Below the pieces are notes generated by a model. The model was not told the origin of the DNA. It saw only the letters and a program-made list of their open reading frames with translations, and ran no database searches. From the IMG/VR virus record IMGVR_UViG_3300031972_002304, positions 1 through 64,000 of that record: a stretch of DNA of 64,000 nucleotides. The stretch is one strand, 5' to 3'. This DNA is from a virus. This document shows, piece after piece, positions 4,327 through 47,680 of this stretch. The translations under genes and the position numbers were made by a program. The first letter of the stretch is position 1; every line of letters starts with the position of its first letter.

Positions 4327-4776
4327 ATGCCGACAAAGCCGAAGAGCAAGGCCACGCGGTCACGCGGCGGGCGCCCGCCGTATAGCCCGACCATCGAATC
4401 CCGCCAGATGGTGGAGGAGATGAAGTTCTGCGGTGAGAGCGAGAACACGATCGCCAGGGCCCTGCGGATCGACGTCGACACGATGCGCAAGCATTTCGCC
4501 GACGAACTCGCCTATGGCCACGCCAGCCGGCGCAGGGAGATCGTCAGTCTGCTCTTCAAGTCGGCGCGGGACGGCAATGTCTCGGCGCAGAAGAAGCTCG
4601 AGGAGATGGGGCGCGTCGCAGGCGCAGCGGCAGAGATTGACCGCCGAGGTCAGGCCCCGACTCCGCCGGCACCGCCGAAGCTTGGCAAGAAGGAGCAGCA
4701 GCTCGTCGACGCGAAGGAGGTGACGGGCAAGTTCGCACCGCCGGCGCCGCCGAAACTCATCGTGAACAACGGCTGA
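4327..4776 (+). CDS. Terminase small subunit
   Basis: 149 residues in the usual place between HNH and TerL. The N-terminus (GGRPPYSPTIESRQMVEEM, followed by an ENTIARALRIDVDTMRKHF helix-turn-helix) is the DNA-recognition domain of a small terminase. The middle is a charged helical oligomerisation region, and the tail carries Pro-rich APPKLGKKEQQ and APPAPPKL segments, often seen in rhizobial TerS proteins, probably contacting TerL. It ends one base before the TerL start. Confidence 0.75.
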   Translation: MPTKPKSKATRSRGGRPPYSPTIESRQMVEEMKFCGESENTIARALRIDVDTMRKHFADELAYGHASRRREIVSLLFKSARDGNVSAQKKLEEMGRVAGAAAEIDRRGQAPTPPAPPKLGKKEQQLVDAKEVTGKFAPPAPPKLIVNNG

Positions 4777-4777
4777 C

Positions 4778-6505
4778 ATGGAGTGGTCGACCGCCTGCGT
4801 TGACTGGCGTGAGAGGATCGTCGCCAAGCAGTCGCTGATCGCCTTCGACCCGCTGTTCCCGTCGGAATCTGAGGCTGCGCTCGCGGTCTTCAAGTCGCTC
4901 AATGTCGTGGACCTTCCACAGGTCTACGATCAAAAGACGGGCGAATACCGGTATCAGACCTTCGGCGACGTCGCGGAAGAGTTCGTCTTCGATTTCGTCC
5001 GAGCGGTGTTCGGCGCCTATGACGCGGAGAACGCCTCCAGGCTGATCGAAGAGTTCTTCCTGCTGGTGAGCAAGAAGAACGGCAAGTCGGTCGTCGTCGC
5101 CGGGATCATGCTGACGGCGCTCATCCGCAACTGGCGGCACTCGGCGGAACTGCTGATCCTGGCCCCGACGAAAGAGGTCGCGGACAACTCCTTCAAGCCT
5201 GCCTCCGACATGGTGCGGTCCGACCCAGAGTTGACGGACCTCCTCCATATTCAGGACAATCTGAAGCAGATCACGCACCGGCTGACGCGGGCCGTTCTCA
5301 AGGTCGTCTCGGCAGATTCTTCGACGTCGGCCGGCAAGAAAGCCGGGTTCGTCATGGTGGACGAGCTTTGGCTGTTCGGGAAGAAGGCCAACGCCGCGGC
5401 GATGCTGCAGGAGGCGACCGGCGGCCTAATCTCCAAGCCGGAGGGCTTCATCATCTACGTGTCGACGCAGAGCGACACGCCGCCGGCTGGAGTCTTCAAG
5501 GAGAAGCTCGACTACGCTCGCGATGTCCGCGACGGGAAGATCAAGGATCCACGGTTCCTGCCGGTGATCTACGAATTCCCGGAGGCGATGATCAAGTCGA
5601 AGGCCTATCTGAAGCCTGAGAACTTCTACATCACGAACCCCAACCTGGGCCGCTCGGTTCGGCAAAGCTGGCTAGAGCGTAAACTCGCAGCGGTCCTCCA
5701 AGGGACGGACGAAGAAAACGACACGATTCAGACCTTCCTCGCGAAGCATCTGAACATCGAGATCGGCATGAACCTGCGGGCCAATCGCTGGCCCGGGGCG
5801 GATTTCTGGGCGCGCCAGGCGAAGCCAGAGATCACGATCGAATGGCTCATGCGGAAGTGCGACGTGATCGTGCCGGGCCTCGACGGCGGCGGTCTCGACG
5901 ACCTCTTCGGGCTGTGCCTGCTCGGCCGCCACGCTGTCTCGAGGCACTGGTTCGCCTGGTGCCACGCATGGTGCCATCGCGGCGTTCTGGAAAGGCGCAA
6001 GCAGATCGCTCCGAAGCTGCTCGACTTCCGCACGGCCGGCGATCTGACGATCGTTGACGACGAGCTAGAGGACGTGTCGGCCATCGTCGAGATCATCGGC
6101 GCGGTGAAGGACGAAGGGCTGCTCGGGCCGGTCGCGGTCGACCCAGCCGGCATCGGCGAGCTGGTCGACGCCTTGGCCGAGATCGGCGTCACCGCCGAGG
6201 AGGGTCTGCTGATCGGCGCGCCGCAGGGCTACGCGCTGATGAACGCGATCAAGACGGCCGAGCGCAAGCTCGCGAACCGGACGCTCTGGCACAGCGGCGC
6301 CGGCATGATGTCCTGGTGCGTCAGCAACCTGAAGATCGAGCCGACAGCTACGGCGATTCGCGCGTCGAAGCAGACCGCCGGCGACGCGAAGATTGATCCC
6401 GTCATAGGGCTATTCAACGCGGTCACCGTGATGAGCAGAAACCCGGAAGCGAGTGGATCGATGAATCTGGACGAGTTCCTCTCGAACCCGATCATGGTGG
6501 TGTGA
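4778..6505 (+). CDS. Terminase large subunit (packaging ATPase/nuclease)
   Basis: 575 residues of the HK97-type large terminase family. The ATPase half has the Walker A motif SKKNGKS at residues 98-104 and Walker B VMVDE at 192-196, with LILAPTKEVADNSF before the switch region. The nuclease half (RNase H fold) shows the acidic run GLDGGGLDDLFGLCLLGR at about residue 368 and DPAGIGELVDAL further on. It powers DNA translocation into the procapsid and cuts the genome. The start follows terS by one base. The stop codon overlaps the portal ATG. Confidence 0.95.
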   Translation: MEWSTACVDWRERIVAKQSLIAFDPLFPSESEAALAVFKSLNVVDLPQVYDQKTGEYRYQTFGDVAEEFVFDFVRAVFGAYDAENASRLIEEFFLLVSKKNGKSVVVAGIMLTALIRNWRHSAELLILAPTKEVADNSFKPASDMVRSDPELTDLLHIQDNLKQITHRLTRAVLKVVSADSSTSAGKKAGFVMVDELWLFGKKANAAAMLQEATGGLISKPEGFIIYVSTQSDTPPAGVFKEKLDYARDVRDGKIKDPRFLPVIYEFPEAMIKSKAYLKPENFYITNPNLGRSVRQSWLERKLAAVLQGTDEENDTIQTFLAKHLNIEIGMNLRANRWPGADFWARQAKPEITIEWLMRKCDVIVPGLDGGGLDDLFGLCLLGRHAVSRHWFAWCHAWCHRGVLERRKQIAPKLLDFRTAGDLTIVDDELEDVSAIVEIIGAVKDEGLLGPVAVDPAGIGELVDALAEIGVTAEEGLLIGAPQGYALMNAIKTAERKLANRTLWHSGAGMMSWCVSNLKIEPTATAIRASKQTAGDAKIDPVIGLFNAVTVMSRNPEASGSMNLDEFLSNPIMVV

Positions 6506-43668: not shown

Positions 43669-44415
43669 TCAGCCGTCGATCCGCCGGCGGTGCTTCCGGA
43701 TGATGTCGTCGACGATCGCGATGATGGCGATCTCCTCGCCGTTGTCCGGTTCGTGGTCGGGGATGATCCGCAGGCTCTTGTGCGTGCCATTGCTCGAGAT
43801 CGGCCGCAGCTCCTGCATTCCGTCCGGATGGCGGAAGAGCCGCTTCACGGTGAGCTCGCGCAGGTGGCCGCCGTTCCTGGTGCGCTGGACAACCACGTCG
43901 TCGCCGTCTCGCAGTTCGAACGGGTAATCCCAGATTTCCCAGCAGACGATCCTGTCGCCCTCCTGGATGCCGCCGCGATCCATCGAGTCACCAGCTACTT
44001 CGTAAATGACCTTTTTTGCAGATGGGAAAGAAGGGTCCATGGGGATAACGACGCTTTCTCTTGGCTCGAAATATTCGTCAATTTCCAGCCACATTCCGGC
44101 CTGCACAACCCCGGCAACTGCGACAATTTGCCCCGCAACTGAGGCGACGGCCGACTTCGGCACGTCAATTGGCCTGGGGTTGGCTGCCCGTATCTCGTCC
44201 TGCTCGCCGTAGAGGTATTCGACGTCGCACTGCAGCACGTCGGCGAGGCGCCGGATCGAATCCCGGCGAGGGTCTTCTGTGCGTCCGGTCTTCACGGTCG
44301 AGAGCCAGGTCGGCCCCATGCCGGCGTCCATTGACGCCTTTCGCATGGACATGCGGACGCCTTGGCTGCGCAGGTCATCGATACGTTTTTCGATGCGGGA
44401 AAAATCAATCGGCAT
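43669..44415 (-). CDS. cI: CI-like repressor with S24 (LexA-type) self-cleaving domain
   Basis: 248 residues. The N-terminal 75 (FSRIEKRIDDLRSQGVRMSM, then ASMDAGMGPTWLSTVKTGRT and SIRRLADVLQCDVEYLYGEQ) form an HTH domain. The C-terminal domain has a putative cleavage site Ala106-Gly107 in VVQAGMW, catalytic Ser144 in EVAGDSMDRGG and Lys191 in ELTVKRLF. It should self-cleave with RecA to start induction. AAGGAGG precedes ATG 44415. The gene faces the Cro-like gene at 44560 across the operator region. Confidence 0.92.
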   Translation of the reverse strand: MPIDFSRIEKRIDDLRSQGVRMSMRKASMDAGMGPTWLSTVKTGRTEDPRRDSIRRLADVLQCDVEYLYGEQDEIRAANPRPIDVPKSAVASVAGQIVAVAGVVQAGMWLEIDEYFEPRESVVIPMDPSFPSAKKVIYEVAGDSMDRGGIQEGDRIVCWEIWDYPFELRDGDDVVVQRTRNGGHLRELTVKRLFRHPDGMQELRPISSNGTHKSLRIIPDHEPDNGEEIAIIAIVDDIIRKHRRRIDG

Positions 44416-45031: not shown

Positions 45032-45856
45032 ATGGCCGGACGAGTTCTCGAAAGCAACGACAACGGCGACGGGCCGACCGAGGAGGTCTTCACCCGGATC
45101 CTGAACGAGCACATCCGCCTCGAAAAGGAGGCGAGCAGCGTCCGTTCGAAACAGAAGGCGCTGAAGAAGAAGGCCGAGGACGACGGCATCGACATGACCG
45201 ATCTCAAGGCGGCCTTGAAGCTCGTCAGCGCCGATCCGCGCGAGGTCATCGCCCAGCGGAATCGAGAGCTGCAGTATGCGCGGTGGCTGAAGGCGCCGGT
45301 CGGCGAGCAACTCCACATGCTCGAAATGCCGCCGGACCAGTCGAAGATGTCCGACGAGCAGCGCGAGCAGAAGTGGGAAGACGAAGGCTGGCAGGCCGGA
45401 CTGATGGGCCGCGATCGCGACACCTGTCCGCATGCGCCGGAGAGCCTCGGCTTCCAGGCGTGGATGCGAGGATATGATGCCGGTCAGCGGAAGAACCTGT
45501 CCGGCATCAAGGGGCCGAACAACAAGCCGGTGACCGACCCTTCCAACGCGCCGAAGCTGGACGGCACCGGCACCGATGCCGCCCCGAAGCGCCGCGGCCG
45601 CCCGCCGAAGAACCAGACCGCCGCATCGTCGTCCGAGGGTGAGAAGGGGGCGGCACCTCCCGCGCCCCCGTCCTCGGGCGACGGCGGCAAGAAGCAGCCG
45701 CCCGCTCCGCCGGCGCCGCCGAAGGCCGCGAAGCCGGACGAGCCCAAGTCGGAGCCCATGCCGGAGCCCATGCCGGACGCCGATCTGTCCGAGGAGGAGC
45801 GCAAACGCATCCAGGATGATCTGGACTGGCAGAGTTCCGGCCCCGGCGTCTCCTGA
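45032..45856 (+). CDS. Multidomain DNA-associated protein: GapR-like coil, Rmf/CrpP-like module, AT-hook
   Basis: 274 residues, three parts. Residues 20-75 (FTRILNEHIRLEKEASSVRS then KKKAEDDGIDMTDLKAALKL) resemble GapR, the overtwisted-DNA binding protein of alphaproteobacteria. Residues 115-155 (WEDEGWQAGLMGRDRDTCPH and LGFQAWMRGYDAGQ) resemble the Rmf/CrpP fold. Residue 185 onward has an AT-hook, PKRRGRPPKNQ, then a long Pro/Glu/Lys tail (PPAPPKAAKPDEP). It could bind phage or host DNA at overtwisted sites. AAAGGA precedes ATG 45032. Confidence 0.55.
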   Translation: MAGRVLESNDNGDGPTEEVFTRILNEHIRLEKEASSVRSKQKALKKKAEDDGIDMTDLKAALKLVSADPREVIAQRNRELQYARWLKAPVGEQLHMLEMPPDQSKMSDEQREQKWEDEGWQAGLMGRDRDTCPHAPESLGFQAWMRGYDAGQRKNLSGIKGPNNKPVTDPSNAPKLDGTGTDAAPKRRGRPPKNQTAASSSEGEKGAAPPAPPSSGDGGKKQPPAPPAPPKAAKPDEPKSEPMPEPMPDADLSEEERKRIQDDLDWQSSGPGVS

Positions 45857-45998
45857 AATCCCAGAGCGAAAGCATCCGAGGACAACGGCGTCACAGGGAG
45901 ACCGGAGAGTGCCGGCCCCGCCGACGTGACGGGAGATGCGAGTAGGCCGAGCCGGGGCGGCGGTTCCCCGGCAGCAATCCGCAATCAGGAGAGCGGCC

Positions 45999-46451
45999 AT
46001 GGATACCATCGACCTGACCGAAAAGACGTTGAGAGCCATCGGCGGTGACCCATTCGACTGGCGAAATCACCGGATCAGCTATGAAGAACTTCAGCGTGCA
46101 TCTGTCGTTCGGATCACGATCCACGGCGAGCAGCGGGTCGTCAAGAACCGCAACGGGCCGGTCACAAGTGCGGTCGACAGCGCGTCGGACGATCGCACCG
46201 CGAACAATGCCGTCCGCCACAAGTACCGCGTCCTCTCGGATGCCGAGAAGGCTCAGGTGGTCGCCATCAAGGACAAGGGCGCCGAGTTCCTCAGCCTGAT
46301 CGACAGCCTGCGCACACCGCTGCAGCCGGCGCTCGACGCCGATGGCAATGACACCGGCATGGCCTACGGCACGATAGACCGCGATCTGAACATCGCCGCC
46401 GAGCGTGCCGAGGAAGCCGTCATGTGGGCGGTGAAGCACATCACCGCCTGA
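45999..46451 (+). CDS. Acb2/Tad1-like anti-defence protein (cyclic nucleotide sponge fold)
   Basis: 150 residues. The last 80 (HKYRVLSDAEKAQVVAIKDK, then GAEFLSLIDSLRTPLQP and AERAEEAVMWAVKHITA) match the helical Acb2 fold that binds the cyclic signalling nucleotides of CBASS or Thoeris systems. The preceding 70 residues are an extra N-terminal region (DTIDLTEKTLRAIGGDPFDW) absent from short Acb2 proteins. It has CAGGAGA upstream. A sponge would protect the phage from abortive infection by host CBASS. Function is inferred. Confidence 0.65.
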   Translation: MDTIDLTEKTLRAIGGDPFDWRNHRISYEELQRASVVRITIHGEQRVVKNRNGPVTSAVDSASDDRTANNAVRHKYRVLSDAEKAQVVAIKDKGAEFLSLIDSLRTPLQPALDADGNDTGMAYGTIDRDLNIAAERAEEAVMWAVKHITA

Positions 46452-46547: not shown

Positions 46548-46724
46548 ATGTTCAAGTTCGAGATGAAGCAGGTGGTCAAGATGGTGGAGAGCGAGGAGAC
46601 CGGAACCGTGATCGCCCGCGCCGAGTATGCCGCCTGCGAGAACCAGTACCGGGTTCGCTACAAGGCAGCCGATGGCCGCCAGGTCGAAAACTGGTGGGAC
46701 GAGTCGGCTATCGCGGCGGCCTGA
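46548..46724 (+). CDS. Small beta-rich phage protein
   Basis: 58 residues, MFKFEMKQVVKMVESEETGT then VIARAEYAACENQYRVRYKA and QVENWWDESAI. GGAG precedes the ATG by 7 bases. This short SH3-like arrangement is common to phage proteins of unknown role that bind small ligands or nucleic acid. It lies just before the tRNA gene. Confidence 0.6.
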   Translation: MFKFEMKQVVKMVESEETGTVIARAEYAACENQYRVRYKAADGRQVENWWDESAIAAA

Positions 46725-46798: not shown

Positions 46799-46874
46799 GG
46801 GCGCTTAGCTCAGCGGATAGAGCACGGAGCTTCTATCTCCGGTGTCGCAGGTTCGAGTCCTGCAGCGCTCGCCA
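46799..46874 (+). tRNA. tRNA-Arg (anticodon UCU)
   Basis: 76 bases with CCA encoded. Acceptor GGGCGCT pairs with AGCGCTC (one G-U). D-stem GCTC/GAGC, anticodon stem CGGAG/CTCCG with loop CTTCTAT, variable loop GTGTC, T-arm GCAGG-TTCGAGT-CCTGC, discriminator G and CCA. Anticodon TCT reads AGA (and AGG by wobble). This is a phage gene inside the early operon. It could serve the AGA codons that are rare in the GC-rich host. Confidence 0.95.
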
Positions 46875-46898: not shown

Positions 46899-47165
46899 AT
46901 GCGCAGCATCATGAGCAGGGACGCGTGGCGCCGGTCGCGCGCAAAGCTGAGGCAGCAGGACGCCAAGCGCGCTCTCGCACCGATCCCGCCGTCCGCCGAT
47001 CCCGACGAGATCCACTTCGCCACCGACATCGACTTCCCCGGCATCTGGTTCGCATCGATGCCGTCGTGCCCCGGCGTGACGGTGCCCATCCACAGCAAGC
47101 ACGAGCCGCAGGAGCCGATCCGCCAGGCTATCCGGGCCGAATACGAGAAGGACCGCAAGCGATGA
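46899..47165 (+). CDS. Small protein of unknown function
   Basis: 88 residues. MRSIMSRDAWRRSRAKLRQQ is basic and helical, followed by DEIHFATDIDFPGIWFASMP with an acidic-aromatic stretch and a basic C-terminus. GGGGCTCGG lies before ATG 46899. The stop overlaps the next gene by 4 bases. Confidence 0.5.
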   Translation: MRSIMSRDAWRRSRAKLRQQDAKRALAPIPPSADPDEIHFATDIDFPGIWFASMPSCPGVTVPIHSKHEPQEPIRQAIRAEYEKDRKR

Positions 47166-47680
47166 AAGCCGAATGCCCATGCTGCGGCGGGAAGGTCAGT
47201 CCGCACGACATCCTGATCGATGAAGCCGTCGGCGGCGTCGCCCATAAGGGCAGGATCGCGCATTTCGCCCCCAGGCGGCTCGCGGTCTTCAAGCTCCTGC
47301 TCGACGGATACCCGGAGATGCTCACGAAGGACGACATTCTGGACAAAGTCTTTGGCGAGCGCGGGCGGGACAAGGAGCGGCTCCTCTCCACGATGCTGGC
47401 GCAGATGAGGCCAGACCTCGAGCGCCTCGGCCTGCAGACCGTCACCAGCTACGGCGTGGGTTATCGCCTCGCCTTCGTGGAGGAGAACCTCCGCCCATTC
47501 GTGCGGAGCAAGAACCGCCGGAGGAAGCTCGACACAGGCGATATCGCCGCGATCCGCATGCTGCGCGAGCGTGACAATCTGCGTGCGATCGACATCGCGA
47601 AGCGCCTGAACATCACCAGCCGCGCCGCCATGCTCGCCGTGTGCGAGATCGAGCGCGAAAAGGCGAGGGTCGTCGCATGA
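47162..47680 (+). CDS. Zinc-ribbon plus PhoB/OmpR-type winged-helix regulator
   Basis: 172 residues. An N-terminal CPCCGGKVS ribbon-type knuckle is followed by residues 38-105 (LAVFKLLLDGYPEMLTKDDI, then LSTMLAQMRPDLERLGLQTV and TSYGVGYRLAFVEE) in the OmpR/PhoB wing pattern. GVGYRL is the hallmark end of the wing strand. A C-terminal helix-turn-helix (TGDIAAIRMLRERDNLRAID, IAKRLNITSRAAML) follows. There is no receiver domain. It may control phage late genes or a host promoter. Confidence 0.7.
   Translation: MKAECPCCGGKVSPHDILIDEAVGGVAHKGRIAHFAPRRLAVFKLLLDGYPEMLTKDDILDKVFGERGRDKERLLSTMLAQMRPDLERLGLQTVTSYGVGYRLAFVEENLRPFVRSKNRRRKLDTGDIAAIRMLRERDNLRAIDIAKRLNITSRAAMLAVCEIEREKARVVA

Follow-up and report, generated by a model that had tools for sequence, protein, structure and literature searches.

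The protein encoded at 45999-46451 is predicted, with a probability of about 0.8, to be an Acb2-type sponge for cyclic nucleotides, encoded by a phage. The window, i.e. the whole stretch of 64,000 nucleotides that was analyzed, comes from a temperate phage of an alphaproteobacterium, and the protein belongs to the Acb2/Tad1 hairpin family and carries an orphan extension specific to its lineage. In the mechanism proposed, several chains (six, as in Acb2) would form a compact oligomer with pockets able to take up cyclic di- or trinucleotides from CBASS-type cyclases, and suicide effectors would thereby not be switched on while the phage infects or a prophage is induced. The extension would be a recent gain of this lineage: some 165 bp that brought along a ribosome-binding site and a start codon were placed in frame 5′ of the core, and the old start was lost. 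It is probably a small separate appendage that would leave the sponge core working.

The gene and its hairpin core

The open reading frame begins with an ATG at 45999 on the plus strand, its stop codon ends at 46451, and it is a real gene with a product of 150 amino acids. The three peptides on which the original prediction relied, EEAVMWAVKHI among them, are all present in this product. The features considered are the following:

43669..44415, minus strand: S24-type (CI-like) repressor
45032..45856, plus strand: next gene upstream, with an Rmf-like domain and a syntenic counterpart in an Aurantimonas prophage
45987..45991, plus strand: Shine-Dalgarno sequence AGGAG, 7 nt 5′ of the ATG, read directly
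45999..46451, plus strand: acb2-like gene, 150 aa, with PF24729 at residues 75-149
45999..46163, plus strand: lineage-specific N-terminal extension, residues 1-55, coding-like, with no relative found
46164..46451, plus strand: core with the Acb2/Tad1 hairpin, residues 56-150, of which the conserved RTANNAVRH arm is a part
46548..46724, plus strand: downstream gene of 58 aa, phrog_8618 (unknown function)
46799-46874, plus strand: tRNA-Arg(tct), shortly downstream of acb2
47162-47680, plus strand: small protein whose sole family match is an OmpR-type winged-helix DNA-binding domain (Trans_reg_C)

The naming of the protein as an Acb2/Tad1 family member was borne out by profile comparisons. Pfam model PF24729 (Acb2_Tad1_hairpin) matched residues 75-149 with an E-value of 2.2e-14 and 53.8 bits, about twice the curated cut-off of 27 bits. 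When a profile of 21 subfamily sequences was run against all PDB sequences, p26/Acb2 (8h2j, 8ixz) and Vs.4 (7uq2) ranked first, with E around 1e-3, and hhalign of the subfamily profile gave E-values of 1.5e-6 with PaMx33 Acb2 and 6e-7 with T4 Vs.4. The matches of the hairpin profile to KCTD5 in the PDB were put down to chance. The PHROG match of the 150-aa protein was phrog_717, which is annotated as of unknown function.

Sequence identity to the experimentally studied Acb2 proteins is only 22-23%, and the likeness lies in the hairpin and in particular residues. The Acb2 of Pseudomonas phage PaMx33/PaP2 (p26; 8H2J, 8IXZ) is likewise a PF24729-type hairpin encoded by a small gene of a tailed phage; its K26 and R67, which are presumably ligand-binding residues, aligned with K91 and R128 of the window protein. 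Tyr76 aligned with Y11 of PaMx33 and with Y8 of T4 Acb2, the Y8A mutant of which has been reported not to bind cyclic dinucleotides (PMC12657218). Among 110 distinct relatives, Y76 was kept in 108, K91 in all 110 and R128 in 109. On the other hand, the identity to the PaMx33 protein is 22%, the C-terminal tail of the latter is absent, and the window protein has a conserved N-terminal arm of its own, the orphan front of 55 residues and a beta-hairpin tip between the long helices. T4 Acb2 (Vs.4; 7UQ2) shares the hairpin and also the motif IAKTKxxEAxMWA of the last helix of the subfamily, but at 23% identity it differs in having a tail with the ligand-stacking F82, both absent from the window protein, and in lacking an equivalent of R128.

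The core was modelled by AF2 as one short and two long antiparallel helices (core positions 10-15, 26-48 and 73-94), with the beta-hairpin tip between the long ones; pLDDT was about 90 or more in the two long helices and lower in the short one. One short plus two long antiparallel helices is the layout described for Acb2 (PMC12043709). In Foldseek comparisons of the core with solved Acb2 structures, TM scores of 0.49-0.58 and probabilities up to 0.47 were obtained with E-values of 1.6-3, which are not significant, something to be expected of a helical hairpin of this size; among the PDB matches of the core, the Acb2 and Vs.4 chains were top in probability. A BFVD fold search returned many phage proteins labelled Acb2/Tad1 hairpin with high probability and E above 0.1.

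Extent, origin and role of the N-terminal extension

An extra front of 70 residues had been claimed originally. The front is real, and it occurs in 1 of 124 relatives, but the part special to the window protein amounts to some 55 residues (1-55/58), while about 15 of the 70 belong to a conserved subfamily arm. This arm, roughly residues 59-74 (VDSASDDRTANNAVRH), precedes the ligand tyrosine. Only the window locus, among the 124, has a start 57 codons 5′ of the core model that reads into the core. Nearly all the other loci with a recognised ATG start within 8 codons of the core model. Longer fronts are few (13-31 aa, plus a spurious one in L123), and their sequences are unrelated to the extension.

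The extension may instead be no functional part at all but an artefact or a chance event without lasting effect, i.e. an assembly or sequencing fault such as a chimera, or an unselected neutral insertion; this reading has some weight but is less likely than not. It is in line with a single occurrence on a single contig and with a third-position GC of 0.71 in the extension vs 0.88 in the core, as well as with the failure to find relatives in the databases searched. Residues 1-58 had no relatives in phage records, viral contigs (IMG/VR), GTDB contigs or plasmids (the best plasmid match of the N-terminal front had a non-convincing E of 0.8), the viral-contig and GTDB scans relying on 8-residue seeds that can miss distant relatives. 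They had no match among Pfam, NCBIfam and PHROG models either, and only marginal, unconvincing ones (E 0.006-0.1) in 385 alphaproteobacterial genomes, while a scan of viral contigs with the pattern DPxDWRxHR gave nothing convincing. Against an error or accident, the 55 codons are open and their codon score lies at the 35th percentile of the real genes of the window phage, a score reached by only 3% of stop-free wrong-frame stretches of equal length; the front has a Shine-Dalgarno sequence and an ATG of its own; and no leftover start for a short form exists, as codon 11 (TTG) is the last in-frame ATG, GTG or TTG ahead of the conserved core. Taken together, the coding-like codon usage, the own initiation signals and the lack of a start nearer to the core make it most likely that the front is translated, rather than being an over-long open reading frame call.

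Concerning the origin of the extension, the closest comparison is with the acb2 gene of a sister prophage (L087) in Aurantimonas sp. CSK15Z-1, which has a 72% identical core and the same gene order, but an ATG directly before the core and no extension. The sister start, ATGAACACGGTCGAC, aligns with ACAAGTGCGGTCGAC at 46164 in the window, where codon 46164-46166 is ACA instead of the ATG of the sister, and the intergenic DNA after rmf can be aligned between both up to the leader. The simplest history is therefore an in-frame gain of about 165 bp that provided a new start, together with loss of the old start. Other sources were considered and rejected. Similarity of the extension to the core was not beyond that of shuffles (p about 0.3-0.6), contrary to a duplicated core piece; no separate upstream gene corresponding to it was found in the 124 loci; an apparent match of L069 to residues 12-150 runs through a stop codon and takes in upstream DNA that is not homologous; and PDB matches of residues 29-59 to Pizza propellers are meaningless sums of repeated pieces of 3-5 bits.

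It had also been suggested that the extension may alter ligand choice or localisation. This did not find support, since the extension has no transmembrane segment (maximum KD19 -0.06) and no family match, and its model, a strand-helix-helix-beta hairpin, reaches a pLDDT of only 50-75. A neutral or mildly useful appendage is more likely than a new ligand site. It is improbable, although conceivable, that this phage lineage captured the extension as a second, functional domain giving the sponge a new activity, in a subfamily where the pocket would already have been rebuilt with the RTANNAVRH arm replacing the C-terminal tail; such a domain might add another pocket for ligands, tether the sponge to an immune protein of the host, or protect it from guard systems of the Panoptes type. 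Less probable still is that the window protein is a Tad1, the anti-Thoeris sponge, with the extension as the antiparallel beta-sheet that comes before the hairpin. By Pfam definition, the PF24729 hairpin is common to Tad1 and Acb2, and in Tad1 a four-stranded N-terminal sheet is followed by two long helices (PMC12043709), so that in both proteins something precedes the hairpin, and a beta hairpin was modelled at residues 36-49 of the extension. However, that modelled sheet is short, of low confidence and found in 0 of 123 relatives, and the extension is not conserved; no confidently modelled sheet of the Tad1 type was seen, and no Tad1 chain appeared among the best 50 fold matches or in the PDB profile searches. 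As the only member of its subfamily with such an extension, the window protein offers a natural way to see if added domains are tolerated, or put to use, by the compact Acb2 oligomer.

The alphaproteobacterial subfamily and its ligands

Searches turned up 208 relatives in viral contigs, four in phage records and 40 in genomes of bacteria, most of which are Alphaproteobacteria. Most of them have 75-100 aa and start just 5′ of V-D-S-x-S-D-x-R-T, and nearly all end right after the last helix, without the C-terminal tail of the PaMx33 and T4 proteins. They represent an added alphaproteobacterial group of sponges with a putative anti-CBASS role, and the group is common among the phages of this class; no subfamily member was found among the Acb2 proteins studied in the literature. 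In L058 (approximately 4546-4980), the frame of the acb2 relative stays open beyond the usual stop and goes on into a hydrophobic stretch that may span the membrane; this is another possible fusion, in this case C-terminal, and its added part has no Pfam match.

The missing tail, including the position of the ligand-stacking F82 of T4, means that the ligand range of the tested Acb2 proteins is not transferable to the subfamily. It is somewhat doubtful, but worth weighing, that these hairpin proteins are sponges mainly for another signal (gcADPR, as Tad1, or trinucleotides only), with the RTANNAVRH arm in place of the tail. Arm residues R73 and H74 were kept in 107-108 of 110 distinct relatives and R66, N69 and N70 similarly, the conservation of the last three being partly selected by the search patterns, outside which R73, H74, Y76 and R128 lie; in the alignment, the arm is absent from PaMx33 and T4 Acb2. 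Nevertheless, dinucleotides as well as trinucleotides are already ligands of Acb2 (PMC12043709), which makes a change of signal unnecessary, and the gene neighbourhood of the relatives points to CBASS-type cyclic oligonucleotides.

In this neighbourhood, a portal-Acb1 fusion gene (PF06381 + PF23474) lies directly upstream of the acb2 relative, often overlapping it, in 25 of the 122 related loci with enough upstream DNA. The fusion was checked by Pfam in four genes and by a profile of the C-terminal domain in the rest, and the 25 loci include a few near-duplicates, for example L002/L085 and L012/L014. Loci with this arrangement include L007, L012, L023, L089 and about 20 others. Acb1 is an anti-CBASS nuclease that acts on the CBASS signal. 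Its adjacency pairs a degrader with a sponge and thus supports an anti-CBASS role for the subfamily, portal-Acb1 followed by acb2 being a putative degrader-plus-sponge pair that phages of Alphaproteobacteria carry within their structural module. In the window there is neither an acb1 gene nor an Acb1 domain, and the portal of the window phage is of another type (PF04860).

Genomic context and host

The S24-type repressor gene at 43669..44415 places the acb2 gene in the early or lysogeny region of a temperate phage. The order rep-DUF6074-cI-cro-rmf-acb2-...-primase is common to the window and the sister prophage. IMG/VR searches for the same phage type based on the neighbours gave no match, and the window phage is known from a virus contig of 66.5 kb; as to its host, the sister prophage points to Hyphomicrobiales. 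It had originally been suggested that the host has CBASS or Thoeris. In the one genome of the host of the sister prophage, three CBASS/Thoeris markers were looked for (SMODS, AGS_C and ThsB_TIR) without any match, a sample too small to be decisive. A sponge gene mirrors the hosts encountered earlier, which need not include the current one.

The product of the upstream neighbour at 45032-45856 (plus strand) has 274 aa, with an Rmf/CrpP-like domain (ribosome modulation factor) in the middle and a proline-rich C-terminal half. Just 5′ of the acb2 Shine-Dalgarno sequence, a GC-rich candidate hairpin, GCCGGGCGGTTTCCCGGC, was seen in the leaders of L009, L036, L047 and L060, and a hairpin of similar form stands 5′ of that of the window gene, at 45930-45980.
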